Made by a program: the position numbers and the translations under genes. Below, in pieces: positions 3,212 through 32,365 of a stretch of DNA of 64,000 bases. The stretch is from Rubellimicrobium roseum (GTDB lineage Bacteria > Pseudomonadota > Alphaproteobacteria > Rhodobacterales > Rhodobacteraceae). The DNA lies in the NCBI RefSeq assembly GCF_006152145.1, contig NZ_VDFV01000001.1, positions 372,001 to 436,000 of the forward strand, in the 5' to 3' direction. Below the pieces are notes generated by a model that did not search any database, was not told the DNA's origin, and saw nothing but the letters and a program-made list of their open reading frames with translations. The stretch's first letter is position 1; each line of letters opens with the position of its first letter.

Positions 3212-4642
3212 ATGAGCCTCGACGAGCGGCGCAAGATCATGGCCGGCGCGCAGCTTCGACGTCTGCGCACCACGCTGGGCCTGTCGCAGAGCGCCATGGC
3301 CGGCGAGTTGGGCATCTCGGTGAGCTATCTCAACCTCGTGGAGCGCAACCAGCGTCCGTTGACGGCGCAGCTCCTGATCCGCCTGTCCGAGACCTATGCC
3401 ATCGACGCGCGTGACTTCGCCGGGGCCGAGGACGGTCAGGGCGCCTCCGAGATCGAGGAGGTGCTGGCCGACCCCCTGCTTGCGCCGCTCCAGGTGCCCA
3501 AGGCCGAGATCCGGGCGGCGCTGGAGCAGGCGCCGACGCTCGTTCAGGCGCTCAAGCGGCTCCATTCGGCTTATGCGGGCGTGGCGGAGCTGGGCTCGGG
3601 CCTCGCGGGCGAGCACGCCGAGGCCGAGCGCGGCGGCCCCCTGCCCCCCGCCGTCGACGCGGTGGAACGCGTGCGGGCCTATCTCCAGCAGGCCAACAAC
3701 CACTTCCCGGCGATCGAGGAAGCGGCCGAGACGCTGGCGGCCGAACTAGGCCAGGTCGAGGGCGATCTTTTCCACGCGCTCACGCTGCGGCTGCGCGCGC
3801 GCCATGGCATCCGCGTGCAGGTGATGTCGCACCAGGAGATGGGCGTCACACTGCGCCACTACGACCGCCACCGCCGCAAGCTCATGATCTCCGAACTGGT
3901 CGAGCCCGCCGGGCGCTGCTTCCAAGCGGCCTATCAGATCGGGCTGCTGGAAGCCGGGGACCTCGTCAACGCGGTTCTGGCGGCGGCGCCCGAAATGGCC
4001 GATTCCCAGTCGCGCAAGCTGGGGCGGATCACGCTGGCCAACTACTTCGCCGCGGCCCTGATGATGCCTTATGGCCGTTTCCTCGCGGCGGCGCAGGATC
4101 TGGGCTACGACGTGGATCTTCTGGGCGCGCGCTTCGGCGCGAGTTGGGAGCAGGTGGCCCACCGCCTCACCACGCTCTCGCGCCCGCAGGCGCGCGGCGT
4201 GCCCTTCTTCATGGTCCGCGTGGACAATGCGGGCAACGTGTCCAAGCGCTTCTCCTCGGGCGCCTTCCCCTTCTCGCGCTTCGGCGGCACCTGCCCGCGC
4301 TGGAGCCTGCACGACGCCTTCCGCCATCCGGGACGCACGCTCACGCAGCTGATCGAGATGCCGGACGACAAGCGCTGGTTCTCCATCGCCCGGATGGTGC
4401 GCCGCCTCGCCGCTCCCTGGGGCGAGCCCGAGGCCGCCTTCGCCGTGGCGCTGGGCTGCGAGGAGCGCTTCGCCTCCCAGCTCACCTACGCCCGCGGCCT
4501 GCGCGAGATGCGCCCCACGGGAATCGGCGTGACCTGCCGCCTGTGCGAGCGCGCGAACTGCCCCAGCCGTGCGGCGCCGTCGATCCTGGGGGGGCTCGAC
4601 CTGTCCGAAGCGACGCGGGGGCTTTCGCCCTTCGGGCGCTAG
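3212..4642 (+). CDS. ScfR/RamB-like short-chain acyl-CoA-responsive regulator
   Basis: 476 residues. Residues about 12-66 are an XRE/HTH_3 domain ([18 protein letters not shown], then a recognition helix near [12 protein letters not shown]). The middle, about 170-290, resembles the IrrE N-terminal/M78-like domain but has no HExxH, as usual for this regulator group. The C-terminal third has the Cys motif [13 protein letters not shown] typical of DUF2083. This architecture is that of ScfR-family regulators (RamB, PccR, MccR) controlling acetate, propionate or glyoxylate-cycle genes. AGGAG lies 7 bp before the ATG. The divergent pairing with aceA strongly suggests it controls isocitrate lyase and itself. 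Confidence 0.88.
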
Positions 4643-17883: not shown

Positions 17884-20097
17884 GTGAGACTGGACGGAAC
17901 ACCTGGCAACGACACCCTGAACGGCGGTCCGACCGCCGACAGCCTGAACGGCCAGGGAGGACGGGACACGCTGAATGGCAGGGGCGGCAACGACCGGCTT
18001 TTCGGCGGCGCGGGCAACGATCGGCTCGACGGCGGAACGGGTAGGGACCAGCTCTACGGCGGAGCGGGCAAGGACACACTCCAGGGCGGAGCGGGCAACG
18101 ACCTCTACTTCGTGGACCGGGCCAGCGACCTGGTGATCGAGCGGGCCGGAGCGGGCATCGATACCATCCGCTCGGCGGTGAGCCTGACATTGGGCGCCGA
18201 CGTCGAGAACCTGACGCTCGTGGGCAGCGCGGCCCAGCGGGGTTCGGGCAACGCCCTGGCGAACCGGATCAGCGGCACCGGCGAGGCGAACAGCCTGTAC
18301 GGCCGCGCCGGGAACGACGTGCTCCTCGGCGGGGCGGGCAACGACCGGCTCGATGGAGGCATGGGCAATGACCGGCTCCTCGGCGGGGCGGGCAATGACC
18401 GATACATCGTCGACTCGGTCACCGATCGCGTGATCGAGAGCGCCGGCAAGGGAGCCGACGCCATCCTCTCCTCGGTGAGCCTGACGCTCGGATCGAATGT
18501 CGAACGGCTCCAGCTGACCGGGTCGGCCGACCTCAATGGGATCGGCAACGGGCTCGGCAACACGCTGCGCGGCAACGGGGGGGCGAACAGCCTGCGCGGC
18601 GCCGAGGGCCAGGACCTGCTGTATGGCGGCGCCGGCAACGACTGGCTGCACGGCGGGACCGGCAACGATCGGCTGATCGGAGGCACGGGCGACGATATCT
18701 ATCATGTGCGCGTGCCGGGTGACGTCGTCATCGAGCGGGCCGGCGCGGGGCTCGACACGATCCGGTCGTCGATCGACCGGACGCTGGGGAACAACATCGA
18801 GAATCTGGTGCTCATAGGCGGCACGGCCGTGCGGGGCTCCGGCAATACCCTGGCGAACCGGATCAGCGGCAATGGCGTGGCGAACACCCTCTACGGCCGA
18901 GGCGGGGACGACACGCTCGTCGGCGGGGCGGGCCACGACTCGCTTTTTGGCGGGGACGGCGGGGACCAGCTCTTCGGCGGGCTGGGCAACGATTTCTATG
19001 ACGTCAATTCGCGGCGCGACGCGGTGACGGAGGCGACCGACGCGGGAACCGACTTCGTCCGCTCATCGGTGAACGTGACGCTCAGCGCGAATGTCGAGAA
19101 CCTCCAGCTCACCGGCACCAGGGCGCTCTCGGGGACCGGCAATGGCCTCGACAACAGCCTGACCGGCAACGCCGGCATCAACAACCTTCTCGGGCTCGAA
19201 GGCGACGACCAGCTCGACGGGCTGGCCGGAGCGGATGTCCTGTCCGGCGCGGCGGGTCGCGACCGGCTCGATGGGGGCGCGGGCGACGACTGGATGAACG
19301 GCGGCGCGGGCGACGACCTCTATGTCGTGGATCAGGCGGGCGACGTCGTGACCGAGTCCGCCGGCGGCGGCAGCGACCGGATCGAGTCCTCCGTCGGCTT
19401 GACGCTCTGGGACAACGTCGAGGACCTGATCCTCACCGGCCAGGGAAACCTGAACGCCAACGGCAACGGCCTCGACAACCGCATGACCGGCAACGAAGGC
19501 CGGAACGTCCTCATCGGCCGCGACGGGGCCGATCTCCTCGAAGGCCTGTCGGGCGCGGACCTGCTCTATGGCGGCGCGGGCAACGACCGGCTGGACGGCG
19601 ACAGCGGGCAGGATCGCCTCTATGGCCGCGACGGGGATGACGTCATGCATGGCGGCGCGGACAAGGACCGGTTCCAGGGCGACGCCGGGCAGGACGAGAT
19701 CCATGGCGGCGCCGGGGCGGACGGGATGGCGGGCGGTGCCGGGGTGGACACGCTCACGGGCGGGCTGGGGAACGACTTCTTCAGCTTCGCCCGGCTTTCC
19801 CACGCCGGCGACATCATCACCGACTTCCACAACGTGGCGGACGACAACGACCGGTTCAACATCAAAGCCGCCGGCTTCGGCGGGGGGCTGGTCGCGCAGC
19901 AGACGCTCGACAAGGACCGGTTCGTAATCCGGGCCAACGACAACGTCGCCCAGGAGTCCAACGACCGCTTCATCTTCCGCTCGTCCGACGAGACGCTCTG
20001 GTTCGATCGCGACGGCACCGGCGAGAACGAGGCCAGTCTCGTCGCGGACCTGCAGGACGGGGCGGTCCTGACCTCGGCGGACATCCTTCTGATCTGA
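17884..20097 (+). CDS. RTX calcium-binding secreted protein with five tandem modules
   Basis: 737 residues from a GTG at 17884, AAGGAG 10 bp upstream. It opens directly with RTX nonapeptides (GTPGNDTLNGG) and has no Sec signal, so export by a type I system is expected. A module of roughly 92-109 residues repeats five times. Each has a spacer beginning D-x-I-x-S-S-V-x-x-TLG-x-x-VENL-x-L-x-G (near residues 94, 196, 297, 389, 498), then GNxLxN(R)I-x-GNxxAN, then GGAGNDxLxGG calcium-roll repeats and a YxVD step. The last about 115 residues (LSHAGDIITDFHNVADDND..., ending TSADILLI) are the usual C-terminal secretion signal region. No enzymatic domain; probably surface or matrix material. No transporter genes nearby. 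Confidence 0.9.
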   Translation: MRLDGTPGNDTLNGGPTADSLNGQGGRDTLNGRGGNDRLFGGAGNDRLDGGTGRDQLYGGAGKDTLQGGAGNDLYFVDRASDLVIERAGAGIDTIRSAVSLTLGADVENLTLVGSAAQRGSGNALANRISGTGEANSLYGRAGNDVLLGGAGNDRLDGGMGNDRLLGGAGNDRYIVDSVTDRVIESAGKGADAILSSVSLTLGSNVERLQLTGSADLNGIGNGLGNTLRGNGGANSLRGAEGQDLLYGGAGNDWLHGGTGNDRLIGGTGDDIYHVRVPGDVVIERAGAGLDTIRSSIDRTLGNNIENLVLIGGTAVRGSGNTLANRISGNGVANTLYGRGGDDTLVGGAGHDSLFGGDGGDQLFGGLGNDFYDVNSRRDAVTEATDAGTDFVRSSVNVTLSANVENLQLTGTRALSGTGNGLDNSLTGNAGINNLLGLEGDDQLDGLAGADVLSGAAGRDRLDGGAGDDWMNGGAGDDLYVVDQAGDVVTESAGGGSDRIESSVGLTLWDNVEDLILTGQGNLNANGNGLDNRMTGNEGRNVLIGRDGADLLEGLSGADLLYGGAGNDRLDGDSGQDRLYGRDGDDVMHGGADKDRFQGDAGQDEIHGGAGADGMAGGAGVDTLTGGLGNDFFSFARLSHAGDIITDFHNVADDNDRFNIKAAGFGGGLVAQQTLDKDRFVIRANDNVAQESNDRFIFRSSDETLWFDRDGTGENEASLVADLQDGAVLTSADILLI

Positions 20098-20129: not shown

Positions 20130-21169
20130 CTCCGCCCCCGGCTCGACCACGACAGCGGAGCAGCCCTCGTGGGGTCGAACCTCGACGGGAGCACTCCGAA
20201 ATGGAGACCCGCCCGCGCCCTTGACCCTCAGGGCGCGGGCGACCCCGCGTACATCCCCCTCCCGGCTGCGGCAGGATGGACGCCATGAACCGGCAGAGCG
20301 CGAACGGGTTCATGGCGGGCGGTCATCCACGATTCGCAGGGCGGCCCGAAGCTCGCCTCCCGGCCCACCGGGCCCATCCCTCACCGACTCGGGCGACGAC
20401 GAGATTCCGAACGGCGCAGGCGCATGCAGGCGCTGCGAACCGGCAGCAGCCGTTCGCCCCGACATCCGTGACGAAACGACGAGGCCGGCGACGACCTGTT
20501 TTTCGAATCGCAGCCGCACGGGCCCCAGTTCCGACTGGACCCCAGGCAGAGCCACACCTCCGAGGCACTGTTCATGGGCTGATTCGGGCCCATGGCTGTG
20601 GCCGCCGTCGACCAGGCCCCGATGATGGAGCACCGCACGGGAGAGCCGGTCGTCTGCCACGCGGCGAGCCTCGTGCATGCCGCACGGGCTCCGGACCCAG
20701 CAAGGCGCAGGCGGACAGGATCACCTTGACGCAGCGATCATGACGAGGGGCCAGCCCTTGAGCCGCGCGAACGACCCTCGATCCCGTGAAGTTCGCGGTC
20801 AAAGCCAGATCATGCGGGATGAAGGCCCTGCGCCCTCGGCGAAAGGGGATGCAGGGCTCCACGACACGCCTGCCCAAGGTCCAACGGAACCGGCCGGCAT
20901 CATGGCCCGGCCACCGATCAGGACCTCGGCCTGGGGCAGAGAGCACCGGGGGCGCCATCGCACCAAGCTGGTCGCCTCGGTGTCCCGCGCCCGGAAACGG
21001 GCCCATCGGCGGCCCTTCGTTAGCCCGCAAGCAGGGTATCGCTCACCTGGGCGAAGCTCACAAATTGGCCCCGCTCGTGCTTCGGTCACGCCGCGAAGAG
21101 GCCGCGATTCACGGCAAGAAGGAGATCAGACTGGAGGAAAAAGCCAGCGCAACGAAAACGAGGGACGCA
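20130..21169. other. Intergenic region between the RTX and beta-helix genes
   Basis: About 1.04 kb without a convincing gene. Frames of 60-190 codons exist but their composition is erratic. Near 20380-20560 two neighbouring frames contain weakly RTX-like pieces (SGDDEIPNGAGA and AGDDLFFES), so part may be a degraded RTX end. The last 150 bp, with purine-rich segments, is the leader of the beta-helix gene. Confidence 0.4.
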
Positions 21170-23209
21170 ATGCCGACGATCAATGTTTCGACACTGTCAC
21201 AGCTCTACAATGCTATGGCATCCTGCAAGGGCGGTGAAACCATTCTGTTGGCGGGGGGCAACTACGGTGACTTCCGGCTGGACCTGCAGACGAAATTCAA
21301 CTTCGCCTTCCCGTCGAACGTGACGATCAAGTCGGCGGATCCGGCCAAGCCGGCGGTGTTCGAATCCGCGCTCGTGCGCGGCGCCGACAACCTGACCTTC
21401 GACTCGGTCAAGTTCGATTACACGTTCCAGTCGGGCGACAGCACCAACATCAGCCCGTTCACCTTCACCGGCTGCGAGAATCTGACGATCCGCAATTCCG
21501 TCTTCGACGGCGACGTGGCCAAAGGTGTCTCGTCGGCGGTAGATGGCTTTGGCTACGGCATCGGTCTGGTGGTCAAAAGCTCGACGGGCGTCACGATCGA
21601 GAACAACGAATCCTTCGGCTTCTGGAAGGGCATGGTGTTCAACCAAAACTCGTCCATGGATATCGTCGGCAACGATCTCCATTCGATGCGGATGGACGGA
21701 TTCAATTTCTGCGCCGTGCAGGACGTCCTGATCGAGGACAACTACATCCACGATTTCCGCGCGACCGTGCGGGCGATCACCGGCGACCATTGCGATTTCC
21801 TCCAATTCTGGACCACCGGCACGACCCAGCCGTCCAAGAACGTCATCATTCGCGACAATATCCTGGACATCGGAAACGGATCGCCGACCCAGTCGATCTT
21901 CATGCGCAATGAAGAAGTCGACAGCGGGCGCATGACCTTTGCCTCCATGGCCTACCAGAACATCGTGATCGAGAACAATACGGTCACCAACGGGCACGCG
22001 CATGGCATCACCGTGGGCGAGACGAATGGCCTCACGATCCGCAACAACTCGGTCCTGCATGCCGACGGGTTCGCTGACGACGGAGCCGACACGGGGGTCG
22101 AGATCCCTCGGATCAGCGTGTCGTCCGGTTCCAAGGGCGTCGTGATCACCAAGAACATCTCGGCGGTCGTGCCCTCGACGCAGTCCGGGTGGACGGTCAG
22201 CGACAACGTCATCGTTCAGGACCAGGACGCGTCCAAATCCAACCACTACAGCAAGATGTTCACCTCGGCTTCCCTTGTCGACGATGACGGCCAGCACGAG
22301 TTCCTGGCCATCGTGGGTGGCACGATCGACAAGCTCAACGCCGGGTCGCTGCTCACGCAAGGGACCGACGGAGCGGTCGCGAAGCCCATCAGCCCGGCTC
22401 CTGCCCCGGCCCCGGCCCCGGCCCCTGCGCCTGCGCCTGCTCCCGCTCCCACCCCTGAAACGACCGCGCCCACGACGTCCACTCCCGTCGCGGACACGTC
22501 GGAGCCGGACGGCATCCTGAGCATCTCGAACGGCCGGTTCGTGGCCCAGGAGGATGGAAGATCCATCGACCTCGGCGCGGTGCCCAAGTGGACGGCTGGC
22601 GGACTGCAGCTCGGGGCCAAGGGCGTCTCGGCGCGGGTCGACCGCGACCACGTGGTCGACGTGGTCGGCGCGGACTCCATGACGATCGCGTTCAGGCTGG
22701 ATGCCGACGCCAAGGGCGCATCGGGCGAGCTTTTCCGGATGCATGGCAGCTTCATCACCAGCGTGACCAGCTCGGGCGAGCTGCAGGTCCGGATGTTCAA
22801 GGAAGGCGGCTCGATCACCACCCTGACGACCAAGGGGTCGGCCCTGAACGCGGCGGTCGACAGGGACCGCGACATCGTCATCGATCTGGACGGCGGCAAG
22901 CTGCAGGTCTGGGTCGATGGCAAGATGACCGGCCAGGCCGCGTTCGCCGGAGTGGTTGGCGGCGAGACCTTCGGCTCGCACGACCTCGTCTTCGGCAATC
23001 CCTGGAACTCGGCCAACTTCAAGGGCGACATCTCGGTATTCGATCTGTCCGTGGGTGACAGCGATACGGCCCAATCCGCGACCACCACCCTGGCCACGGC
23101 GAGCACGGCGCAGGAGCATGACTTCGACTACGCCGTGGACGCCAGGGCCGACGAGGATGCACGCTTCGACTTCGTGACGCAGTACCAGGGACTCGACGTC
23201 GCGGCCTGA
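21170..23209 (+). CDS. Extracellular right-handed beta-helix protein with LamG-like domain
   Basis: 679 residues from MPTINVSTLSQLYNAMASC (GAGGGA just upstream). Residues about 1-380 show the pectate-lyase/epimerase-type beta-helix pattern with many short repeats (NLTIRNSVFDG, GVTIENNESFG, DVLIEDNYIHD, NVIIRDNILD, NIVIENNTV, GLTIRNNSV). Residues about 405-440 are a Pro-Ala linker of about ten PA units followed by a Thr-rich stretch. Residues about 450-640 form a concanavalin/LamG-like jelly roll (SMTIAFRLDADAKG, GKLQVWVDGKMTG). There is no Sec signal, so type I secretion is likely. Lyase, C5-epimerase and binding roles are all possible. The frame continues upstream to 20786 without family similarity. 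Confidence 0.82.
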   Translation: MPTINVSTLSQLYNAMASCKGGETILLAGGNYGDFRLDLQTKFNFAFPSNVTIKSADPAKPAVFESALVRGADNLTFDSVKFDYTFQSGDSTNISPFTFTGCENLTIRNSVFDGDVAKGVSSAVDGFGYGIGLVVKSSTGVTIENNESFGFWKGMVFNQNSSMDIVGNDLHSMRMDGFNFCAVQDVLIEDNYIHDFRATVRAITGDHCDFLQFWTTGTTQPSKNVIIRDNILDIGNGSPTQSIFMRNEEVDSGRMTFASMAYQNIVIENNTVTNGHAHGITVGETNGLTIRNNSVLHADGFADDGADTGVEIPRISVSSGSKGVVITKNISAVVPSTQSGWTVSDNVIVQDQDASKSNHYSKMFTSASLVDDDGQHEFLAIVGGTIDKLNAGSLLTQGTDGAVAKPISPAPAPAPAPAPAPAPAPAPTPETTAPTTSTPVADTSEPDGILSISNGRFVAQEDGRSIDLGAVPKWTAGGLQLGAKGVSARVDRDHVVDVVGADSMTIAFRLDADAKGASGELFRMHGSFITSVTSSGELQVRMFKEGGSITTLTTKGSALNAAVDRDRDIVIDLDGGKLQVWVDGKMTGQAAFAGVVGGETFGSHDLVFGNPWNSANFKGDISVFDLSVGDSDTAQSATTTLATASTAQEHDFDYAVDARADEDARFDFVTQYQGLDVAA

Positions 23210-24240: not shown

Positions 24241-24412
24241 CCCGATATCGGCAGAGGGCGAGGCTGAGCGGAAAACAGCCATGTCCGGCTCGCTGTCTCG
24301 GCAACCCTGATCCTGTGGTCGACGCCGGGCACCCGTTCCTGCCAGTATCGGATCAAGCCCTTCAATCCGCCTCCGCAGAAGGCGTGAGAGGGCCAAGGGA
24401 GGGGCGCTGCTC

Positions 24413-24592
24413 ATGGTTCTTGCTCACCTGCTCGTGGGCCTCCTGGCTGGTGGCCTTGTCGGCATGGTGCGACTTATGACGGCCCCGCAAGTCTGGAGCG
24501 CGCTCGGCTCCTACGCCCTCGCTGGCGGCCTGGCGTTGCTGGCCAGCGCACTGCTCTCGCTGGCCGCCCAGCGCGACCCCGATGACACATGA
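24413..24592 (+). CDS. 59-residue two-helix membrane protein
   Basis: Begins MVLAHLLVGLLAGGLVGMVRL and ends LAAQRDPDDT. Two hydrophobic helices (about residues 2-18 and 30-52) with a short loop containing MTAPQVWSALG. GGGAGG lies about 10 bp upstream. The size and topology suit a holin-like or other small phage membrane protein, but no family is recognised. It is followed 62 bp later by copy 1 of the hairpin repeat. Directly read from the sequence; too short for many gene finders. Confidence 0.6.
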   Translation: MVLAHLLVGLLAGGLVGMVRLMTAPQVWSALGSYALAGGLALLASALLSLAAQRDPDDT

Positions 24593-24654
24593 GGAGCCGA
24601 TGCTGACGAGCCGCCAACGGCTGGCCCTTCCCTCTGGGGCTCTGCCGGACCGCA

Positions 24655-24770
24655 CGGATACCGAGGGGGCGTCCGTGGCGGCGTCCGTGCCCCCGAGTGG
24701 CTGCTTGTGGAGGGGCTCCACCCTCCGCCGGCGATCGCCGTCCGGGGGCGCGGCAGCCGCGAAGCCCCCA
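24655..24770 (+). repeat. Hairpin repeat, copy 1
   Basis: Starts CGGATACCGAGGGGGCGTC, has GTGCCCCCGAGTGG in the left half, a variable middle, then CCGTCCGGGGGCGCGG and GCCCCC at the end. Three nested stems can be drawn: GGGGGC with GCCCCC; GGCGGC with GCCGC; CGTGCCCCCG with CGGGGGCGCG. Two more copies lie at 24994-25110 and 26869-26979 in the opposite orientation. An upstream stretch of about a dozen bases is also partly shared. Confidence 0.8.
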
Positions 24771-24776
24771 CGAACA

Positions 24777-24800
24777 GAAGCCCTGCCGTAGCAGGGCTTC
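24777..24800. terminator. Perfect hairpin right after repeat copy 1
   Basis: GAAGCCCTGC (24777-24786), loop CGTA, GCAGGGCTTC (24791-24800): a perfect 10-bp stem with tetraloop, 6 bp downstream of the repeat. No T-run. Not present after the other two copies. Confidence 0.5.
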
Positions 24801-24993
24801 CGCACCACTTACCTGCGATCGCCGGGACTCGTTCCGACTGCCATGATAGGACAGATCGATCGCGCGAGAGCATGACCTTTGGTCAGGCGCGGCGGGCGAA
24901 CCGGCGGGCCGGGCGTGCGGACCCACCCTTCATCCAGCCGACGATCTGTCCCCTCACAGGTCGGTTGGCGAGATCAAGGCAATGGGTCTGGTA

Positions 24994-25110
24994 TGGGGGC
25001 AGCGCGGCCACCGCGCCCCCGGACGGCACGAGAGACAGGACACGTGGCAACGCCTCCTGTCTGACCACTCGGAGGCACGACAGTCGCCGCGGACGCCCCC
25101 TCGGTATCCG
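24994..25110 (-). repeat. Hairpin repeat, copy 2 (inverted)
   Basis: Read on the minus strand it begins CGGATACCGAGGGGGCGTC and ends in GCCCCCA. The same three stems form: GGGGGC/GCCCCC, CGCGGC/GCCGCG (perfect), and CGTGCCTCCG/CGGGGGCGCG. The C-to-T change in the last left arm keeps pairing as G-U. It lies about 105 bp downstream of the 97-residue membrane protein gene on the same strand. Confidence 0.8.
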
Positions 25111-25215
25111 CGCGGTATGGCCGCGGCTGCAGGACGCAGGCGCATGACCACTGGCGACGACGTAGGATGGCAGGGAACGGCTCGTGGATGGGTCACCGGC
25201 CTGACGGAAGACGGC

Positions 25216-25509
25216 TCACAGGGAGCCCCCGCTTCCCAGCCAGAGGTAAAGCGGTAGGGTCGTGGCGGCCCCGAAGCCCGGAACGATCGCCGACAGGACC
25301 ACGCCCCAAATGGAGCCCTGGACCGACCAGTAGACGATCCCGGCATAGGCGCCCAAGGCCCAGGTCATCAGAAGGAGGCTCACCAGCATCAGGCCGAGGG
25401 CCTCGGTGAGGCTGCTGACCCCTCGGATCTCGAGCAGCTGGCGTTGTGGCCGCTCCGCCGCGACCGCCGGTTGCGGGTCCTGCCGTTCCAGGGATTCGTA
25501 AAGCGTCAC
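25216..25509 (-). CDS. 97-residue membrane protein
   Basis: Starts at a GTG (25509) giving (M)TLYESLERQDPQPAV, with GAGGAGAT about 7 bp upstream. The N-terminal half is polar. The second half contains two helices, LGLMLVSLLLMTWALGAYAG and SIWGVVLSAIVPGFGAATTL, then LPLYLWLGSGG. No family recognised. Members of this accessory patch are mostly tiny membrane proteins, so a phage or plasmid origin is likely. The frame stays open far upstream, but the ribosome site decides the start. Confidence 0.65.
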   Translation of the reverse strand: MTLYESLERQDPQPAVAAERPQRQLLEIRGVSSLTEALGLMLVSLLLMTWALGAYAGIVYWSVQGSIWGVVLSAIVPGFGAATTLPLYLWLGSGGSL

Positions 25510-25698
25510 GGCCGATCTCCTCTCGCTGCAGATGCACGGTCCCTCAGCGCGAAAGGTGGGCTCCGGGTTCGCAATATCCGCTAACCACACATCTGCCTGA
25601 GGGTTATCGGGGCGGTTTTCAGCCCTGAAGCCGATTGCATCGGCCAGAAAGAGCCGCTGCTGTGGTCGCCACACCAAGCCAAGCAGAACGAGGTTCAG

Positions 25699-25899
25699 AT
25701 GGTCATGGCTCAACTTCTGCGTGCCGTCGTCGCGGGTGTGACGCTGGCCACCACGGGCGCGCTGCTGGGCTGCCCCGACTGGACGGCGTCGCTGACCTAC
25801 GTGACCGGGATGGCCGCAACGCTGATGGCAGGCACCACGACCGTTCGCCGGTCCGCGCCGGCGTTCCGCCCGGGGTCTGGCGCCCCTTCCGTCGGGTGA
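25699..25899 (+). CDS. Small hydrophobic protein, possible
   Basis: 66 residues (or 64 from the second ATG at 25705): MVMAQLLRAVVAGVTLATTG-ALLGC. The N-terminus could be a membrane anchor or a lipoprotein signal (ALLGC resembles a weak lipobox). A second hydrophobic stretch (TYVTGMAATLMAG) follows. Ribosome site weak (GAGG). Neighbours suggest an accessory small-membrane-protein group; no family recognised. Confidence 0.4.
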   Translation: MVMAQLLRAVVAGVTLATTGALLGCPDWTASLTYVTGMAATLMAGTTTVRRSAPAFRPGSGAPSVG

Positions 25900-26052
25900 C
25901 CTCCAGCGCATCCGGCAAACATCGGCCTGGCAGGGAACCGGCCCCATCGGCCCCGAGTTGGCGGGGCGTGCATCCCACCCTTCGGCAGGCATTCCCTCCC
26001 GCCGAAGCCACGAGCCGCCGGAGAGCACGTTCTCTCCGCAGCAGCGACAAAG

Positions 26053-26092
26053 CGCCCTGCGCCGCCTTGTCCCCGAGGCAGCGCAGGGGGCG
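26053..26092. terminator. Hairpin upstream of the 81-residue gene
   Basis: CCCTGCGC (26056-26063) pairs with GCGCAGGG (26082-26089), extended by GCC/GGC inside. About 150 bp after the preceding small gene and 45 bp before the next. It could terminate the former. Confidence 0.35.
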
Positions 26093-26136
26093 GCCGTGTG
26101 AACGGTCGCCAGCCGCTTCCCTGACCCGGAGATCCG

Positions 26137-26382
26137 ATGACCTCGCGCCCCCGCACTGGACGGACCATCCTGCCCTACAAGGTCCAGACCGCGTCGGGGC
26201 TCCCGTCGGCCGACCTCTACAAGGCCGACCTGGAGCACTTCCGGCATCAGGCGGAAGCCAGCGATCCCCGACCGGGGCGGGAGAACGCCCGCCCATCCGC
26301 GCGGATGCTCGGCCTGGCGATTCTGGGCGGCCTCGTCTCAGGTGCCATGATCGGCATGTCCGTCATGTTTGCCGCGACCTGA
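26137..26382 (+). CDS. Small protein with C-terminal membrane helix
   Basis: 81 residues: a polar, basic N-terminus (MTSRPRTGRTILPYKVQTAS), a charged middle with DLYKADLEHFRHQAEAS, and a single C-terminal helix MLGLAILGGLVSGAMIGMSVM. The tail-anchored layout is unusual among its neighbours. GGAG lies about 7-8 bp upstream. Not recognised. Confidence 0.5.
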   Translation: MTSRPRTGRTILPYKVQTASGLPSADLYKADLEHFRHQAEASDPRPGRENARPSARMLGLAILGGLVSGAMIGMSVMFAAT

Positions 26383-26518
26383 TCGGGGCCGCACCACGGC
26401 CAGGACGCGGGACCGACCGCCCGAGATCCCGAACCCTTGCAGAACGGCGCCGTGCGTCCATGAATAGGCTCGTTGGACGAAACAACTCTCAGGCGAGACG
26501 AGCCATTGGTCTCCAGGC

Positions 26519-26866
26519 ATGTCCTTTGAACAAGTCGGGCGTCTCCTGACCGCCGCTGACCGGCTCGAGGAGATGGTGAAAGCCCTGCCGCGCTGGAACC
26601 CCCAGGCTGGTGAGCGTTGGGACGAGTTCTTGGAGCGCTCCTACGAGGCCGAGATGAACCTCGCGAACGAGTTGCGCCGCGTGGCGAACTGCCGTCTGAC
26701 CATGTGTTCACGCAGGTCCCGAGTGGACCTCACTCTGGCCGGCATCAGCGTCACGACGAACCGGGGTCTGGCCCGCGCGTGCCTGGACTGGGTGGAGGAG
26801 GTGCGGGCCACCTACAACGGCCTTGGCACGATGCTGGGCCACAGGAGCAAGCCTCCCGAAGGGTAG
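26519..26866 (+). CDS. Hypothetical helical protein of the accessory patch
   Basis: 115 residues, MSFEQVGRLLTAADRLEEMV. Mostly amphipathic helix with well-spaced Trp and Cys (RWNPQAGERWDEFLERSYEAE; RVANCRLTMCS). No membrane segments and no known motif. The hairpin repeat copy 3 begins 3 bp after its stop codon and may serve as its terminator. Confidence 0.5.
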   Translation: MSFEQVGRLLTAADRLEEMVKALPRWNPQAGERWDEFLERSYEAEMNLANELRRVANCRLTMCSRRSRVDLTLAGISVTTNRGLARACLDWVEEVRATYNGLGTMLGHRSKPPEG

Positions 26867-26868
26867 GA

Positions 26869-26979
26869 CGGGGGCGTCGCGGCCGCCGCGCCCCCGACGG
26901 CGTATGCGCCCGGGCCTAACCACCGGACGCAGACCACTCGGGGGCACATGGGCCGCAACAGACGCCCCCTCGGTATCCG
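26869..26979 (-). repeat. Hairpin repeat, copy 3 (inverted)
   Basis: On the minus strand it begins CGGATACCGAGGGGGCGTC. The outer stem is longest here: GGGGGCGTC pairs perfectly with GACGCCCCC. GCGGCC pairs with GGCCGC, and GTGCCCCCGA with TCGGGGGCGC. The central loop differs completely from the other copies. It starts 3 bp after the stop of the convergent plus-strand gene. Confidence 0.8.
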
Positions 26980-27265
26980 TGAGGTGTGGCGATGGCCCCC
27001 GTGAAGGTCCACCACCAGATGCGGTCACGTGAAAGCATAACTCGCTCTGGCGTGCCCCGGTTGCTTGACGATCCGGCAACGGACCGTTTCCCAGCGAGCG
27101 CCTGACCGTAGCCGATCAGTCCGGCATCGCCTTGGCCGGCCTGCTCTGCCCCCTGACCGTCATCCAGGTGAGACCGGAGGCCTTGGCTGAGACCGGCGCG
27201 CGGGCGGCGCAGCGGGCCGGGGGTGCGGAGCCGGTCACCCGCTCCTCCCGCCTGCGGCCCGAGCG

Positions 27266-28903
27266 TCAGCCGGCCGTCACCTGCGCGTCCGGGTTCAGCG
27301 GAAAACGGATCTCGATCGTGAGGACGCCGGGACGAGACTGGCGCGTGAGACTCCCGCCAAGCTCGCCTCCGATCATGGCCTCGAGGAGGCGTGTCCCGAA
27401 GCCGGAAACCTGACCGGGCGCGGCATCGCCGGCCAACGAAGGCAGCCCGGGGGTCCGCTCCTCCCAGGTGAGCCGAAGATGGATCCCCGAGGGGCCGGGC
27501 TCCATCGTCCAATGGACGCGAACCTCGCCACCCGCCCCTGCTCCCGCACCATACTTCAGGGCGTTCGTGGCAAGCTCATGAAAAACGACGGCCAGGGCAT
27601 GGGTCTGGCGCTCGTCGAGGCGCACCGGCGGCCCCGACAGGTGGCCAGGGTTCGCGGCAGATGCCGAGATCTGGTCGATCTCGAACCGCAGGAGCTCGGC
27701 AAGATCGGCGCTGTCGGTGCCCGACATCACCAGAAGGTCCTGCGCGGCCGACATGGCCTGCAGCCGGGCGTTGAGGCTTTCGGCCATCGCCGCCTTGTCC
27801 ACGGATTCGCGTGCGGTCTGCCGGGCGATGGCGCTGACCCGGGTGAGCGAGTTCTTCATCCGGTGCGCCATCTCGCGCAGAAGAAGGTCCTTCTGCTCGA
27901 CGTTGTGCTGGACCAGCTCGTTCAGGGCGCGGGTCCGTCGGATCGAGATGCCCTGCCAATGGACCGCGACTCCCGCCAACACGACGAGCAGGGGAAAGAC
28001 GATGGCGCTGAACAGGGTCAGGCGCAGCTGGATGGCCGCGCCGAACTCCGGCGAGGGGGCAGCAGACAGGACCCATTCGCGCCCGGCCACGGAAAGGGAG
28101 GTGCGCATCTCCAAGTCCCCCTCCGCCCCGCCCAAGGCAAAGCCCGCCGACTCGAAGAGTGGCACGTCAGGTGCGGCCGCATCGGCAAGGCGCAGCTCCA
28201 GCGGCAGATCGTACCTCTCGAGCACGGCGGTCAGGAGATCGCCCACCCGAACCGGCGCAAAGGCATAGCCCTCGATTTCCGGAGCCCCTGACGGTCGCAC
28301 GGGCAGGTAGACGAGGATGCCGGGCTGCCCGTCCCGGATGGCCACCTCCCGGTCAAGCGTCAGGGGCGGGGTGGCCGTGGCCGCTCCCGTCTCGGAAGCC
28401 TTTAGCATGGCGGCGCGGCGTTGCTCCTCGGTGGCCATGTCGAAGCCGAGGCTCGCGCGGCCGCGGGTGTGATCGGGCTCCAGCAGCACGATCGCGGTCC
28501 GCAGGCCCGGGACAGGCTCAGGCCAGACCCGCCGGTCGCCTCCATAGGCCCGCGACAGGATGCCCTCGATCCCGGCCTCTTGCTCGGGACGCAGGATGCG
28601 GGCGAACCCGAGTTCCTGCAGGCCGGAGTAGAACGCCTCCAGTTCCAGCCCGTCCACGAAGGCCGCGAAGTCCTCCCGGCGGGTCGGCTCGTCATGGACG
28701 GCCAGAAAGCTCCGAGTGGCGTTCAGCAGGGCGATGTGCTGCTCAACCCGGGTCTCGACATAACCGGCGGCCTCCACGAGAAGCCTGGCGAAAGCCTCCT
28801 CGCGGCGCGACGTCTCGATCCCATAGATGCTCCAGGTCAGCCCTGCGCCCACCAGGGACAGGGCGGCGATGGCGGAGGCTGAGAGGCGCGACGGCGAGAA
28901 CAT
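27266..28903 (-). CDS. CHASE-domain HWE/HisKA_2 sensor histidine kinase
   Basis: 545 residues. Helix 1 at about 8-28, extracytoplasmic CHASE-type sensor about 60-285 (ILRPEQEAG, GFDMATEEQRR, VYLPVRP, GYAFAPVRVGDLL), helix 2 about 296-316, then a HisKA_2/HWE kinase core. The H-box LLLREMAHRMKNSLTRVSAI has phospho-acceptor H347; the N-box HELATNALKYG is at 442-452; a GFGTRLLEAM glycine box follows. Kinases of this class often serve general stress, light or cell-cycle-type signalling in alphaproteobacteria, with unlinked response regulators; none lies beside it. The ligand is unknown. Confidence 0.9.
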   Translation of the reverse strand: MFSPSRLSASAIAALSLVGAGLTWSIYGIETSRREEAFARLLVEAAGYVETRVEQHIALLNATRSFLAVHDEPTRREDFAAFVDGLELEAFYSGLQELGFARILRPEQEAGIEGILSRAYGGDRRVWPEPVPGLRTAIVLLEPDHTRGRASLGFDMATEEQRRAAMLKASETGAATATPPLTLDREVAIRDGQPGILVYLPVRPSGAPEIEGYAFAPVRVGDLLTAVLERYDLPLELRLADAAAPDVPLFESAGFALGGAEGDLEMRTSLSVAGREWVLSAAPSPEFGAAIQLRLTLFSAIVFPLLVVLAGVAVHWQGISIRRTRALNELVQHNVEQKDLLLREMAHRMKNSLTRVSAIARQTARESVDKAAMAESLNARLQAMSAAQDLLVMSGTDSADLAELLRFEIDQISASAANPGHLSGPPVRLDERQTHALAVVFHELATNALKYGAGAGAGGEVRVHWTMEPGPSGIHLRLTWEERTPGLPSLAGDAAPGQVSGFGTRLLEAMIGGELGGSLTRQSRPGVLTIEIRFPLNPDAQVTAG

Positions 28904-29915: not shown

Positions 29916-31772
29916 TCAGAGCACGAGGTCGTTGACGGCCAGCGAGGTCACCCCGACCACCCGGATCTCGACGTCCGCTGTCCTGTCTCCGCTCACGTCA
30001 GCCCGCACGATCACCTCGGACCTGCCGGCCGCGTACCAGACCGAATAGGCGCTGGCCTTGGTCCCACCGAAACCGAACGCCTGGTCACCGGCCAGGGTGG
30101 TCCGGCCATCGATCCCGCTCAGGTCGAGATCGTCGAGACCGGACCTGAAGTCGTGGACGACATCGCGGTTGTTCCCGACGACGCTGTCGGTGATGGCGGT
30201 GAAGACGAACGCATCCCGCACGTCGTCCACCCCGCCATGAATCGTGTCCTTGCCGGTGCCTGCGATCAGGGTGTCGGCGCCGGCGCGCCCGTGAAGCAGG
30301 TCGCCGCCGCCGTTGCCCTTGAGGATGTTGTCTGCGGCATCGCCGTAGAGCCTGTCCGCCCCGGCGCCGCCGGAGACGTTCTCAAGATCCAGCAGCGTGT
30401 CGGTTCCGTAGCCGGTGGCCTGGCCTCCGGTCCTCGCCAGGTCGATGACGGCGGCGGTGGAGCCGGTGACAGCCATCCAGTCCATGCCAGCGCCGCCGTC
30501 GAGGGTGTCGTCGCCCGCGTCCAAGCGAAGCGTGTCATCCCCGTCGTCCCCCAGGACCTGGTCGTTGCCGGCGCCCCCGTCCATGTCGTCCGCGCCAGCG
30601 CCCCCGGACAGGTTGTCGTCTCCGCCGCCTCCGAGGAGCGTGTCGGACCCGCCGTCCCCCAGAAGGATGTTGGCTGATTCGCTGCCCGACAGCATGTCAG
30701 CCCCAGAGCCGCCCAAAGCGTTCTCGATGCTCAGGAGCGTGTCCATTCCGGAGCCGGTGTTCTGGACCGTCGTGAGGGAGAGGTCGATGGATGCCGCCTC
30801 CGAGCCCCCGACCAGGATCCAGTCGCGTCCCGATCCCCCATCCAGGAGATCGTTGCCGGCGTCCAGCTTCAAGGTGTCATCGCCCTCCCCGCCAAGGAGG
30901 GCATCATTGCCGAGGTCGCCCGCGAGCATGTCGTTGCCGGCCTGACCATCGAGGGTGTCGTCCCCGTCGGTGCCGATCAGGACGTCGTCGCCCGCGTCGC
31001 CGTTGATCGTGGGGTCGATCACGACGGGGCCGAAGCCGCCCAGGTCCCCCGGACGCACGTCGATGGCAGCCATCGTGGCCGTGAGGGGCGTGCCCGCATA
31101 GGCCCAGTCGCCCGCCCAGCCTTCGAGCGACGGATCCACGCACCACAGATTGGCAAAGCCGTTCATGTCGCCGGTGGTCCAAGTGCCATGGGGCATGTCG
31201 GCGGCCCCGAAGCGGCCGACCACCTGGCCATCGACGAGGAAGATGGCCTCGGTCTCGGTGACGGTGATCTCATAGGTGTGGAAGCCCAGGGCGGCATCGA
31301 AGCCCAAGTCCACGATCACGGGTTGCCAGTTGTTGCCCTGCTCCAGCGTGACGTGTTCGCCGGTCGCGGTCTCCATGTGGATGTTGAGACGGACCTGGGT
31401 CGTGTCGCTGCCCACGAACTCGAAGTCGAACTCGATCCAGGGATCGTTGAAGTGATCGGCCCGGTAGGTGAACATGCCAAAGACGGCGCCGTCCTGCATG
31501 ACCGGAGCTTGCGCCGTCCATGTCCATGTGCCGGTCGAGGCCGCTTCGCAGGACTGCACCTCGCCCCCGCAGTAGGCGTGGGAGGATCCGGCCGGGGCGG
31601 CGGAGAGAGCGAACTGCACGCTCCCGTCCGCCTGCGCCACCACGTTGTCGGGCGACCATTCCATGATCGCGCTTTGCCCCGCCGCCCAATCCGACACGAG
31701 CCAGCTTTCCGTGGTCGCGGGCTCGCCGATCTGGACGAGGTCGATGGACCAGGTGCCTTCGGTCGTGGACAT
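29916..31772 (-). CDS. GH16 beta-glucanase with RTX repeats
   Basis: 618 residues from MSTTEGTWSIDLVQIG (GAGAGGAAG upstream). Residues about 20-235 are a GH16 jelly roll with the catalytic signature EFDFE at 114-118 (two acids as nucleophile and acid/base). Further family features are FGMFTYRADHFND before it and DGQVVGRF later. Probable activity: cleavage of beta-1,3/1,4-glucan or a related polysaccharide such as a bacterial EPS. Residues about 250-540 contain two clusters of GGxGxD calcium repeats; the last about 80 residues resemble the type I secretion end. No Sec signal. It may remodel the same extracellular matrix as the two proteins at 17.9-23.2 kb. Confidence 0.85.
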   Translation of the reverse strand: MSTTEGTWSIDLVQIGEPATTESWLVSDWAAGQSAIMEWSPDNVVAQADGSVQFALSAAPAGSSHAYCGGEVQSCEAASTGTWTWTAQAPVMQDGAVFGMFTYRADHFNDPWIEFDFEFVGSDTTQVRLNIHMETATGEHVTLEQGNNWQPVIVDLGFDAALGFHTYEITVTETEAIFLVDGQVVGRFGAADMPHGTWTTGDMNGFANLWCVDPSLEGWAGDWAYAGTPLTATMAAIDVRPGDLGGFGPVVIDPTINGDAGDDVLIGTDGDDTLDGQAGNDMLAGDLGNDALLGGEGDDTLKLDAGNDLLDGGSGRDWILVGGSEAASIDLSLTTVQNTGSGMDTLLSIENALGGSGADMLSGSESANILLGDGGSDTLLGGGGDDNLSGGAGADDMDGGAGNDQVLGDDGDDTLRLDAGDDTLDGGAGMDWMAVTGSTAAVIDLARTGGQATGYGTDTLLDLENVSGGAGADRLYGDAADNILKGNGGGDLLHGRAGADTLIAGTGKDTIHGGVDDVRDAFVFTAITDSVVGNNRDVVHDFRSGLDDLDLSGIDGRTTLAGDQAFGFGGTKASAYSVWYAAGRSEVIVRADVSGDRTADVEIRVVGVTSLAVNDLVL

Positions 31773-32365
31773 GTGCTTCCTCTCGGGGCCAGTGAGCCGA
31801 AAGCACAACCATGACGTGATACATGGCCAGGCGATGACCGGCGCAGGTCATTTCTACGGCGACGACAGGTCAGGTCCGCAACAGGCCCTGTTGAGCAATT
31901 CACCCGAAAACGACTTCGTTCCGACCCCGGCCCGCCCTGGGCGACGCGTTTCGTCTCGGGCGCGCCGAGGGCTGCGAATCAGGTGAGGAGAACGGCACGA
32001 AGCCGAGGCTCAGCGGTCGGGCGGAGTGGGTCATGAGCCGCTCGACCCGGACCTTCATACTTCGCATCCCGGCCTCCATGGGGCTTCGTCGGCGCCAGCC
32101 GCTCCGGGTGCGCCGGATCGTCCGGCCATAGCGGCAGCGTGCCCGGAGAGGCCCGCTGTCGGCGTAAACTCCTGGGCTAGCGCCTTCCAGAGTTGACCGT
32201 TGGAGCGGGTCGGGATCACGGCCGTCGCCTCGCGGGCGGCGACTGCGGTCTACCGGCTTGGGCGGCCGAAGCAAAACTTCATGGCGGACCGAAGGGACAG
32301 ATATTGGCTTGGGCCTTACGGCTCAGCGCCTTCGCCGTCCAAGCCAAGCATGTGTTCTGGTGATA
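31773..32365. other. Intergenic region upstream of the GH16 gene, up to tRNA-Ala
   Basis: About 590 bp. Frames of 60-125 codons exist on both strands but I recognise no protein. The position beside a tRNA would suit an integration scar, but I could not find a repeat of the tRNA 3' end nearby or any transposase motif. Confidence 0.4.

Follow-up and report, generated by a model that had tools for sequence, protein, structure and literature searches.

Three hairpin-forming repeats, one direct and two inverted, lie within a stretch of 64,000 nucleotides from the genome of the soil bacterium Rubellimicrobium roseum (the window), and they raise the question of what kind of element they are and whether they function as RNA or as DNA. 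A sequence-only reading of the window had proposed a structured RNA, a mobile hairpin of the REP/MITE type or a terminator module of accessory genes, and had kept a coding function open. The structured repeats of alphaproteobacterial mobile DNA are poorly understood and are often hard to place as having an RNA or a DNA function, and the repeat described here adds a compact, testable family to them.

Copies in the window and in the genus

The three copies were found at the places originally given for them, and a covariance model (CM) trained on six copies from R. roseum itself delimits full cores at 24652-24770 (+), 24994-25113 (-) and 26869-26982 (-). All sequence blocks that had been quoted for the three copies are present, the C-to-T change described in copy 2 is borne out (GTGCCTCCGAGTGG), and the outer stem is indeed longer in copy 3 (GGGGGCGTC/GACGCCCCC). 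By blastn, which uses no model, the similarity is far above chance, with E-values of 1.5e-15 for copies 3 and 1, 7.8e-13 for copies 2 and 1, and 6e-8 over 59 nt for copies 3 and 2; the CM E-values of the same copies, about 9e-14 to 2e-17, are not independent, the copies having been used in model building. The hairpin repeat of the window is a real family. The copies and their parts are as follows.

24652..24770, + strand: core of copy 1, a 119 nt rod hairpin with a variable tip (CM R1 103.2 bits, training-set member; fold z -3.9)
24701..24737, + strand: variable tip hairpin of copy 1 (tip fold z -3.7)
24600..24651, + strand: upstream flank of copy 1, with weak likeness to other own-genome copies in alignments
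24777..24800, + strand: 10-bp hairpin GAAGCCCTGC-CGTA-GCAGGGCTTC directly 3' of copy 1, terminator-like without a T-run (fold z -3.8, downstream 54 nt)
24994..25113, - strand: core of copy 2 (CM 104.3 bits, training-set member; fold z -3.5)
25027..25064, - strand: variable tip hairpin of copy 2 (tip fold z -3.8; 44% identity to the C107 paralogue)
25114..25169, - strand: conserved block upstream of copy 2 (TCCTACGT...), sharing 95% identity with its C107 paralogue, while the adjoining spacer reaches 79%
26869..26982, - strand: core of copy 3 (CM 90.9 bits, training-set member; fold z -4.9)
26901..26933, - strand: variable tip hairpin of copy 3 (tip fold z -2.5)

A lack of additional copies in related genomes had been named as a refutation, and the search returned such copies in Rubellimicrobium arenae and R. 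rubrum. With the CM, seven copies were detected in the R. roseum genome, three in R. arenae and four in R. rubrum, giving a total of 14 with core lengths of 114-123 nt, and those of the latter two species are independent of the model's training set. An exact-pattern scan of genome contigs matched in R. arenae and R. rubrum only. The CM found no repeat in five of the eight genus genomes, save one chance-level match (G004, E 0.40), and a match at G000:C65:363028 (E 0.97) was likewise taken as chance; a partial match at G002:C11:214780 (E 0.07), excluded from the 14, looks like a decayed copy. Distant blastn gave no match to copy 1 or to the copy on C133 among plasmids, nor to the C133 copy in the phage collection, and two sequence patterns found no match in viral contigs. 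No Rfam family exceeded its gathering cut-off on the window repeats or on loci L009, L010, L011, L026, L029 and L030, a scan that left out two R. rubrum copies (L027 and L028), and the sub-threshold Rfam hits around the copies in the window, with E from 0.14 to 7.1, were taken as chance. The open-licence literature searched contained nothing on this repeat. The family is small and genus-restricted.

A rod on one strand and its variable tip

As computation shows, the repeat is made up of a linker (GATACCGAG) and two pairs of arms, all of them conserved, and of a tip; the arms close a rod of about 30 pairs. As an RNA it would be read from the strand of the copy alignment, which is + for copy 1 and - for copies 2 and 3. 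The nested stems that had been proposed for all three window copies were confirmed as one shared nested rod, each copy being more stable than 200/200 shuffles (z -3.9, -3.5 and -4.9); among the six copies folded in this way, C107 was weaker (6/200 shuffles as good) and C118a no better than its shuffles (33/200). Over the alignment, standard pairs occupy 91.4% of the pair cells, and sliding by 1-3 columns lowers this share to 40-55%. The covariation check gave a score of 0.202 versus 0.147 in shuffles, with none of 500 shuffles reaching it, and pairs changed on both sides number 8 versus 5.7 in shuffles (20/500 as high); the alignment behind these figures was fitted to the model and is hence biased towards structure. 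The rod region can fold on both strands, and predicted RNA stability is higher on the named strand in 13/14 rows, the exception being G3d, which folds slightly better on the opposite strand. On the named strand the rod holds 54 G-U against 15 A-C cells; leaving out two near-invariant U.G pairs changes the count to 31 against 15. The fold is not uniform, as the minimum-energy fold of G3a differs by eye from the common rod and the model's first small hairpin is broken in 4/13 rows. The strand preference of the pairing points to RNA or to one DNA strand; it fits RNA and single-stranded DNA alike, since this strand, as single-stranded DNA, would give the same signal.

More weakly shown is an alternative local pairing, in which the first arm (GGGGGC) can pair with the second (GCCCCC) to form an A:B helix. 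It is paired in 77/78 cells with two double compensations, a level reached by 17/500 shuffles, whereas the rod helices A:A' and B:B' show none. Both copies with an altered first arm carry a matching change in the second, and these two sequences account for the A:B covariation. Beyond the core, a strong hairpin follows in two R. rubrum copies and in copy 1; a second hairpin upstream of the core found weak support and is not claimed (Stouffer -2.5 versus -0.3 on the opposite strand, with a downstream control at -1.7).

The arms have mean identities of 0.79 and 0.87, whereas identity in the tip, 31-39 nt long, does not exceed the chance level (0.52 versus 0.49 shuffled). All 13 distinct tips nevertheless form a hairpin, with negative z in 13/13 and values singly under 5% in 7/13, and the hand-summed Stouffer value is about -7.9 on the named strand versus -4.5 on the opposite one. 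In the paralogous pair formed by copy 2 and C107, identity is 85% in the gene, 79% in the spacer, 95% upstream of the core, 92% in the left core, 44% in the tip (segment 25063-25026 of copy 2), 94% in the right core and 65% downstream, and constraint reaches about 55 nt upstream of the core. It is shown by computation that the tip varies freely in sequence yet re-forms a hairpin in every copy. Fixed arms beside a replaced, always-paired tip pose the question of specificity or mere spacing.

The coding function that had been kept open is refuted. Past the shared DTEGAS peptide, 6/12 copies continue as PPSG and 6/12 as a RAPEW-type sequence, i.e. in different frames, and stops occur in 6/12; the count covers 12 copies, the G2b row not being included.

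Neighbouring genes and mode of spread

Neighbouring genes were called here by codon score rather than taken from annotation. The 3'-side gene is convergent with the repeat in 13/14 copies (9/10 after hand-merging duplicated loci), the lone exception being G3b with a tandem 3' neighbour, and lies within about 150 nt in eight. Of the 14 copies, eight have a 5'-side gene on their own strand, five have a divergent one, and for one no 5'-side gene was seen. All 14 loci have one or more called genes whose end faces the repeat, at a distance of 2 to about 1250 nt, and no repeat lies between two divergent gene starts (0/14), a location after genes as in REP elements. The genes concerned in the window are the following.

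24413..24592, + strand: open frame of 59 aa, small and hydrophobic, upstream of copy 1, with a near-identical copy upstream of C118b
25216..25512, - strand: open frame of 98 aa, membrane-like, upstream of copy 2, with a paralogue upstream of C107 and similar DNA upstream of C118a
26519..26866, + strand: accessory gene of 115 aa, the nearest small gene to copy 3 and convergent with it; 2 nt separate its stop codon from the repeat

The proposal that each copy follows a small gene holds for copies 1 and 2 and fails for copy 3, where the upstream same-strand frame has 545 aa and is ~284 nt off. Neither the 59-aa nor the 98-aa frame belongs to a Pfam or PHROGs family; a third member of the 98-aa family lies on C76, a contig without a repeat copy, and the 115-aa family is found in 4/8 genus genomes. 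The description of the neighbours as accessory genes was well founded: Lar-like, RMF-like and resolvase genes are among them, and replication and partition genes were recognised by eye. A serine resolvase as the partner of the repeat is not claimed, such frames having been seen at 1.0, 7.4 and 7.4 kb for three copies and not near the rest.

The regions around the repeats are phage- and plasmid-like, and both orientations of the repeat occur in them. The closely related pairs, copy 1 with C118b and copy 2 with C107, have long flanks in common, which indicates that these copies spread as larger segments, and the homology of copy 1 and C118b ends exactly at the 3' end of the repeat. No empty sites could be shown, paralogues of the neighbouring genes being too diverged or too few. 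Between 24300 and 27300, no sigma-70-like promoter was found and a scan covering the window copies detected no T-run (Rho-independent) terminator, the hairpin at 24777..24800 included.

Candidate functions

The best explanation, held here at about even probability, is that the repeat is a putative non-coding structured RNA element of mobile Rubellimicrobium gene modules that acts at transcript ends. Of the options first proposed, structured RNA is the best supported, by strand-specific pairing and covariation, and for tagged REP super-families the REP-like option fails; a terminator module is possible, albeit without a T-run in the region scanned. The rod would be located at a transcript's 3' end, or would itself terminate a short independent transcript, and may there block reading into the neighbouring unit or protect the RNA end, and an early local A:B hairpin may form before the rod closes. 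An insulating role fits because a convergent gene lies on the 3' side of the repeat. Reading the repeat simply as the 3' UTR of the gene before it does not suit every copy, as only 8/14 have a same-strand 5'-side gene. It is conceivable, at low probability, that the element is a switching RNA carried by mobile modules, in which the local arm hairpin would form first and the rod later, the arms would serve as scaffold, and the tip would be swapped or diversified as the recognition part that sets the RNA or DNA partner, giving each module its own address.

A non-autonomous REP/MITE-like palindrome, folded as single-stranded DNA, formerly moved by a transposase acting in trans and left at gene 3' ends, is unlikely, but would account for the phage- and plasmid-like settings, the two orientations, the homology break of copy 1 and C118b, and the gene end facing the repeat at 14/14 loci, as REPs too are mostly found after genes according to Di Nocera et al. 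2013 (PMC3733652). MITEs are characterised by terminal inverted repeats with a target-site duplication; inverted arms are present here, and the ends of the element are uncertain. The reading is opposed by the lack of a Y1 (RAYT) transposase, PF01797 being found in 0/8 genus genomes and 5/14 control genomes, by the long flanks shared between close copies, by the mere 3-7 copies per carrier, and, as far as the uncertain element ends allow, by the want of a consistent target-site duplication, the longest flank-shared word being 7 nt in C118a and <=5 in the other 13. As that article describes them, the CGTC-tagged REPs of Alphaproteobacteria are extragenic palindromes of 20-40 bp, with 8-9 bp stems, 4-5 nt loops and an unpaired CGTC tag, present in high copy mainly downstream of coding regions, between convergent or co-oriented genes; they have no dedicated transposase and may act as RNA. 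On this description, the Rubellimicrobium repeat resembles them as an extragenic alphaproteobacterial palindrome that is placed after genes, lacks a dedicated transposase and may act as RNA, and differs in its length, about 119 nt with an upstream block in addition, its 31-39 nt variable tip, its 3-7 copies and its CGTC, which lies inside a paired arm in the predicted fold. Against the tagged REP super-families the repeat is too long, too low in copy and without a detected Y1 transposase in 8/8 genus genomes, though its location at 3' ends resembles that of REPs. With GTAG REP/RAYT systems, as the article presents them, it shares a hairpin one end of which carries a conserved, unpaired motif, unlike them in a genus without a detected Y1 transposase.

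Quite improbable is an independent family of trans-acting small RNAs whose hypervariable, module-specific tip would be the recognition part. Plasmid antisense RNAs have such variable recognition loops, and the repeat is like them a structured RNA, here predicted, on mobile DNA with a variable loop; unlike them, it has no tip target in the DNA searched and no replication gene was seen directly opposite the copies. The replacement of the tip in copy 2 and C107 with arms and upstream DNA kept, the constraint about 55 nt upstream in this pair and the strong hairpin after copy 1 and two R. rubrum copies would suit a small RNA, as would the 5/14 divergent 5'-side genes, which would require a promoter of its own; none was found in 24300-27300. 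Six own-genome tips matched only themselves or each other above the shuffled level in about 108 kb of 4.85 Mb (the window and three contigs), so that the tip as a guide to other own-genome DNA is rejected for this sample, and lost constraint with pairing kept would look alike.

There is a slim chance that the repeat is a plain bidirectional stop element, a hairpin ending or protecting the mRNA of the convergent 3' gene with no other role. The convergent genes (13/14, eight of them within about 150 nt), the start of copy 3 at 2 nt past a stop codon and the folding of the rod region on both strands are in its favour, but the mRNA of the convergent gene would carry the less stable strand in 13/14 rows, G-U becoming A-C, the conserved linker and upstream block exceed a terminator's needs, and there is no T-run in 24300-27300. 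Even if the repeat were an insulating hairpin only, it would still be a clear case of a 3'-end element travelling with mobile genes.

A folded cassette-type recombination site like integron attC, with the tip as variable terminal structure, is very improbable. Integron attC core sites are R'' (RYYYAAC) and R' (GTTRRRY), mutual reverse complements; the repeat shares with attC conserved outer arms, a variable terminal structure and a position after small genes, with gene-plus-repeat modules at copies 1 and 2, C107, C118a and C118b and the homology break of copy 1 and C118b, but no core-site pair (neither word in 12/14 and a single GTTAGGC in the tip of 2/14, one strand scanned), no array, mixed orientation, similarity of copy 2 and C107 continuing past the repeat, a 98-aa family member on C76 with no repeat on its contig, and no integron integrase, TIGR02249 passing its cut-off in 0/8 genus genomes, the weaker matches in 8/8 and in 14/14 controls being taken for general tyrosine recombinases. 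RAYT/REP, integron and retron identities were rejected, their partner proteins not being found (Y1 and integrase in eight genus genomes, reverse transcriptase in three carriers). The lack of a reverse transcriptase, PF00078 being found in 0/3 carriers and 1/8 genus genomes overall, separates the repeat from retron ncRNAs, which it resembles in its terminal inverted repeats and variable stem.

Extent of the repeat family

The three copies of a hairpin repeat announced by the sequence-only reading are all present in the window, and their full cores were delimited by a covariance model.

Full cores of the three window copies (covariance model)
24652-24770, + strand, full core of copy 1 (c1)
24994-25113, - strand, full core of copy 2 (c2)
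26869-26982, - strand, full core of copy 3 (c3)

Their mutual similarity is far beyond chance (blastn E 1.5e-15, 7.8e-13 and 6e-8), and each forms one long nested hairpin whose fold beats 200/200 shuffles, in agreement with the shared nested fold proposed earlier. Among three further own-genome copies folded, that on contig C133 also beats 200/200 shuffles, and those on contigs C107 and C118 (C118a) are matched by 6/200 and 33/200, respectively.

A covariance model built from six own-genome copies recovered seven copies in R. roseum (three in the window, one on C107, two on C118 and one on C133). The check for more copies in relatives that had been proposed with the repeat proved positive, with three in R. 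arenae SYSU D00782 and four in R. rubrum YIM 131921, all absent from model training (E 2.9e-14 to 8.1e-6), and none in the remaining 118 of the 121 relatives. As c1 and the second C118 copy, C118b, are identical, the 14 copies comprise 13 distinct ones. A second model, built from all 14 rows, matched one of 394 genomes drawn from the family, namely R. roseum itself, R. arenae and R. rubrum presumably not having been drawn; over the whole genus it gave full copies (7, 3 and 4) in three of eight genomes and weak matches at E 0.07, 0.40 and 0.97, the larger model searches using stricter filters by which weak matches are lost. Scanning genome_contigs by pattern (84,980 species, each represented by a single genome, the R. 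roseum record possibly excluded) yielded seven matches in six stretches, solely from the same R. rubrum and R. arenae strains, and viral contigs, phage records and plasmid records gave no match to the repeat. The repeat family is real, restricted to the genus, long and structured, and matched no Rfam family where scanned. An apparently decayed partial copy with the same tip type and degraded outer arms lies ~0.7 kb from a full copy in R. arenae (stretch L026:4781-4873, +).

Anatomy, fold and strand

Read 5' to 3' on the strand on which the copies align (the named strand), an upstream block of ~55 nt comes before a linker carrying GATACCGAG, with GACACC in one copy and AATACC in another. Next come arm A (GGGGGCGTC) and arm B (GTGCCCCCGAGTGG), then the tip, 31-39 nt long, and after it arm B' (CCGTCCGGGGGCGCGG) and lastly arm A' (GACGCCCCCA). 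The upstream block is recognisable in most own-genome copies, c1 excepted, and takes other forms in R. arenae and R. rubrum, recognisable within each species. A small CGG-ATA-CCG hairpin in the linker is lost in R. rubrum, 4 of the 13 distinct rows being broken, so that this stretch is kept as sequence. Compared pairwise, the distinct copies average 0.79 identity in the left core (shuffled 0.51), 0.87 in the right core (0.56) and 0.52 in the tip (0.49).

In the model alignment, which is fitted to the model and biased towards structure, standard pairs fill 91.4% of pair cells versus 40-55% in slid versions, the suggested covariation check gave a score above all 500/500 shuffles, and the count of pairs changed on both sides was reached by 20/500. 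The rod is the minimum-energy fold in 12/13 distinct copies (by eye), the left core pairing with the tip region in the R. rubrum copy G3a. RNA folding favours the named strand in 13/14 rows (the exception being G3d, also from R. rubrum), and rod cells on this strand hold 54 G-U versus 15 A-C, or 31 versus 15 without two near-invariant U.G pairs, these cells not being independent events. The strand bias points to RNA or one single DNA strand, and against a function in double-stranded DNA only; because the pairing is strand-specific, a candidate RNA function is favoured.

Arms A and B are also mutually complementary. The GGGGGC of arm A is changed in just two copies, both from R. rubrum, and B is changed to match; the A:B helix has 77/78 cells paired with two double changes, as reached by 17/500 shuffles, and no double changes occur in the competing A:A' and B:B' helices. 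With A:B forced, the best fold is less stable than the minimum-energy fold by 2-23 kcal/mol (7-23 except in G3d). Judging from the two changed sequences, A:B pairing may be an early fold.

The hypervariable tip

All 13 distinct tips form a hairpin in a test independent of the model alignment, with fold z on the named strand from -0.4 to -3.8 (below 5% in 7/13; 300 shuffles) and hand-summed Stouffer values of about -7.9 on that strand and about -4.5 on the other. In the duplicated pair c2/C107, identity is 85% in the gene, 79% in the spacer, 95% in the upstream block, 92% and 94% in the arms, 65% in the downstream 52 nt and 44%, the chance level, in the tip, and the C107 tip is closer to those of C133 and c3 than to that of c2 (by eye). 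The tip appears to be swapped out and not to drift along with the remainder of the element. It is the least ordinary feature of the repeat and may have a recognition role.

Gene surroundings, mobility and class

By our own codon-score gene calls, the 3'-side gene is convergent in 13/14 copies (tail 0.0009 in a one-sided binomial test against one half), or in 9/10 after hand-merging of duplicated loci (tail 0.011); the 5'-side gene lies on the same strand in eight of the 14, is divergent in five and is not seen in one. From this position, the fold would act as a 3'-end or insulating element. The accessory-gene context described earlier is borne out by neighbours of mobile type in the window, in R. 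arenae and on C107, C133 and C118. These include, in the window, a Lar-like gene (PHROG 599 at E 6.9e-8, with the Pfam model for Lar below cut-off) and a gene matching phrog_3678, a phage family of no assigned function; an RMF-like gene in R. arenae (PF04957, over cut-off); and a serine resolvase gene on C107. Frames on C133 and C118 look by eye like genes of partition and replication type. A 98-aa gene precedes both c2 and the C107 copy, similar DNA precedes C118a, and a third member of this gene family is on C76, a contig without a repeat copy. A stretch of ~520 bp is common to c1 and C118b at 98.7%, and the match ends at the 3' end of the repeat, a break that would fit recombination there. 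Against this, shared flanks show that copies are carried within larger segments. A consistent target duplication was not observed, and no word common to both flanks exceeds 7 nt, the length reached in C118a.

The REP class is the nearest published kind. CGTC-tagged REPs of Alphaproteobacteria, according to a 2013 survey (PMC3733652), lie after genes without a transposase and, unlike the Rubellimicrobium repeat, are 20-40 bp long and abundant. The carrier genomes yielded no Y1 transposase, no reverse transcriptase and no integron integrase over cut-off; because these partner proteins were not found, the repeat is not assigned to the tagged REP/RAYT elements (one form of the earlier REP option), integron attC sites or retrons. 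Coding, which had been entertained for a DTEGAS peptide, is rejected, the frame leading to PPSG in 6/12 copies examined and to a RAPEW-type reading in 6/12, with stops in 6/12.

Several further features were observed around the copies. An undescribed 115-aa accessory gene family has 12 matches in 4/8 Rubellimicrobium genomes (5, 1, 4 and 2), its window member (26519-26866) having no Pfam or PHROG match. Large open frames at 17884-20097, 20786-23209 and 29916-31808 flank the repeat region on both sides, two of the three with RTX-like glycine-rich repeats (by eye). In R. arenae, each of two duplicated repeat-holding modules has one minus-strand match to the Rfam Proteo-phage-1 RNA (L026:6494-6550 and L026:11260-11328), at 41.1 and 28.7 bits, just below and well below the gathering score of 42. 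An IS110-type transposase-like frame is found on C107 (L009:806-1903, -; by eye), and a CRISPR-Cas-like locus, with Cas-like frames and a repeat array (from translations, by eye), lies ~5 kb from a repeat copy in R. rubrum (L028:109-3996 and 4229-4630). On the small contig C133, alongside the partition-/replication-type genes (by eye), a ROSE thermometer (L011:7140-7249, +; 60.1 versus an Rfam gathering score of 45 bits) precedes an open frame resembling that of a small heat-shock protein.
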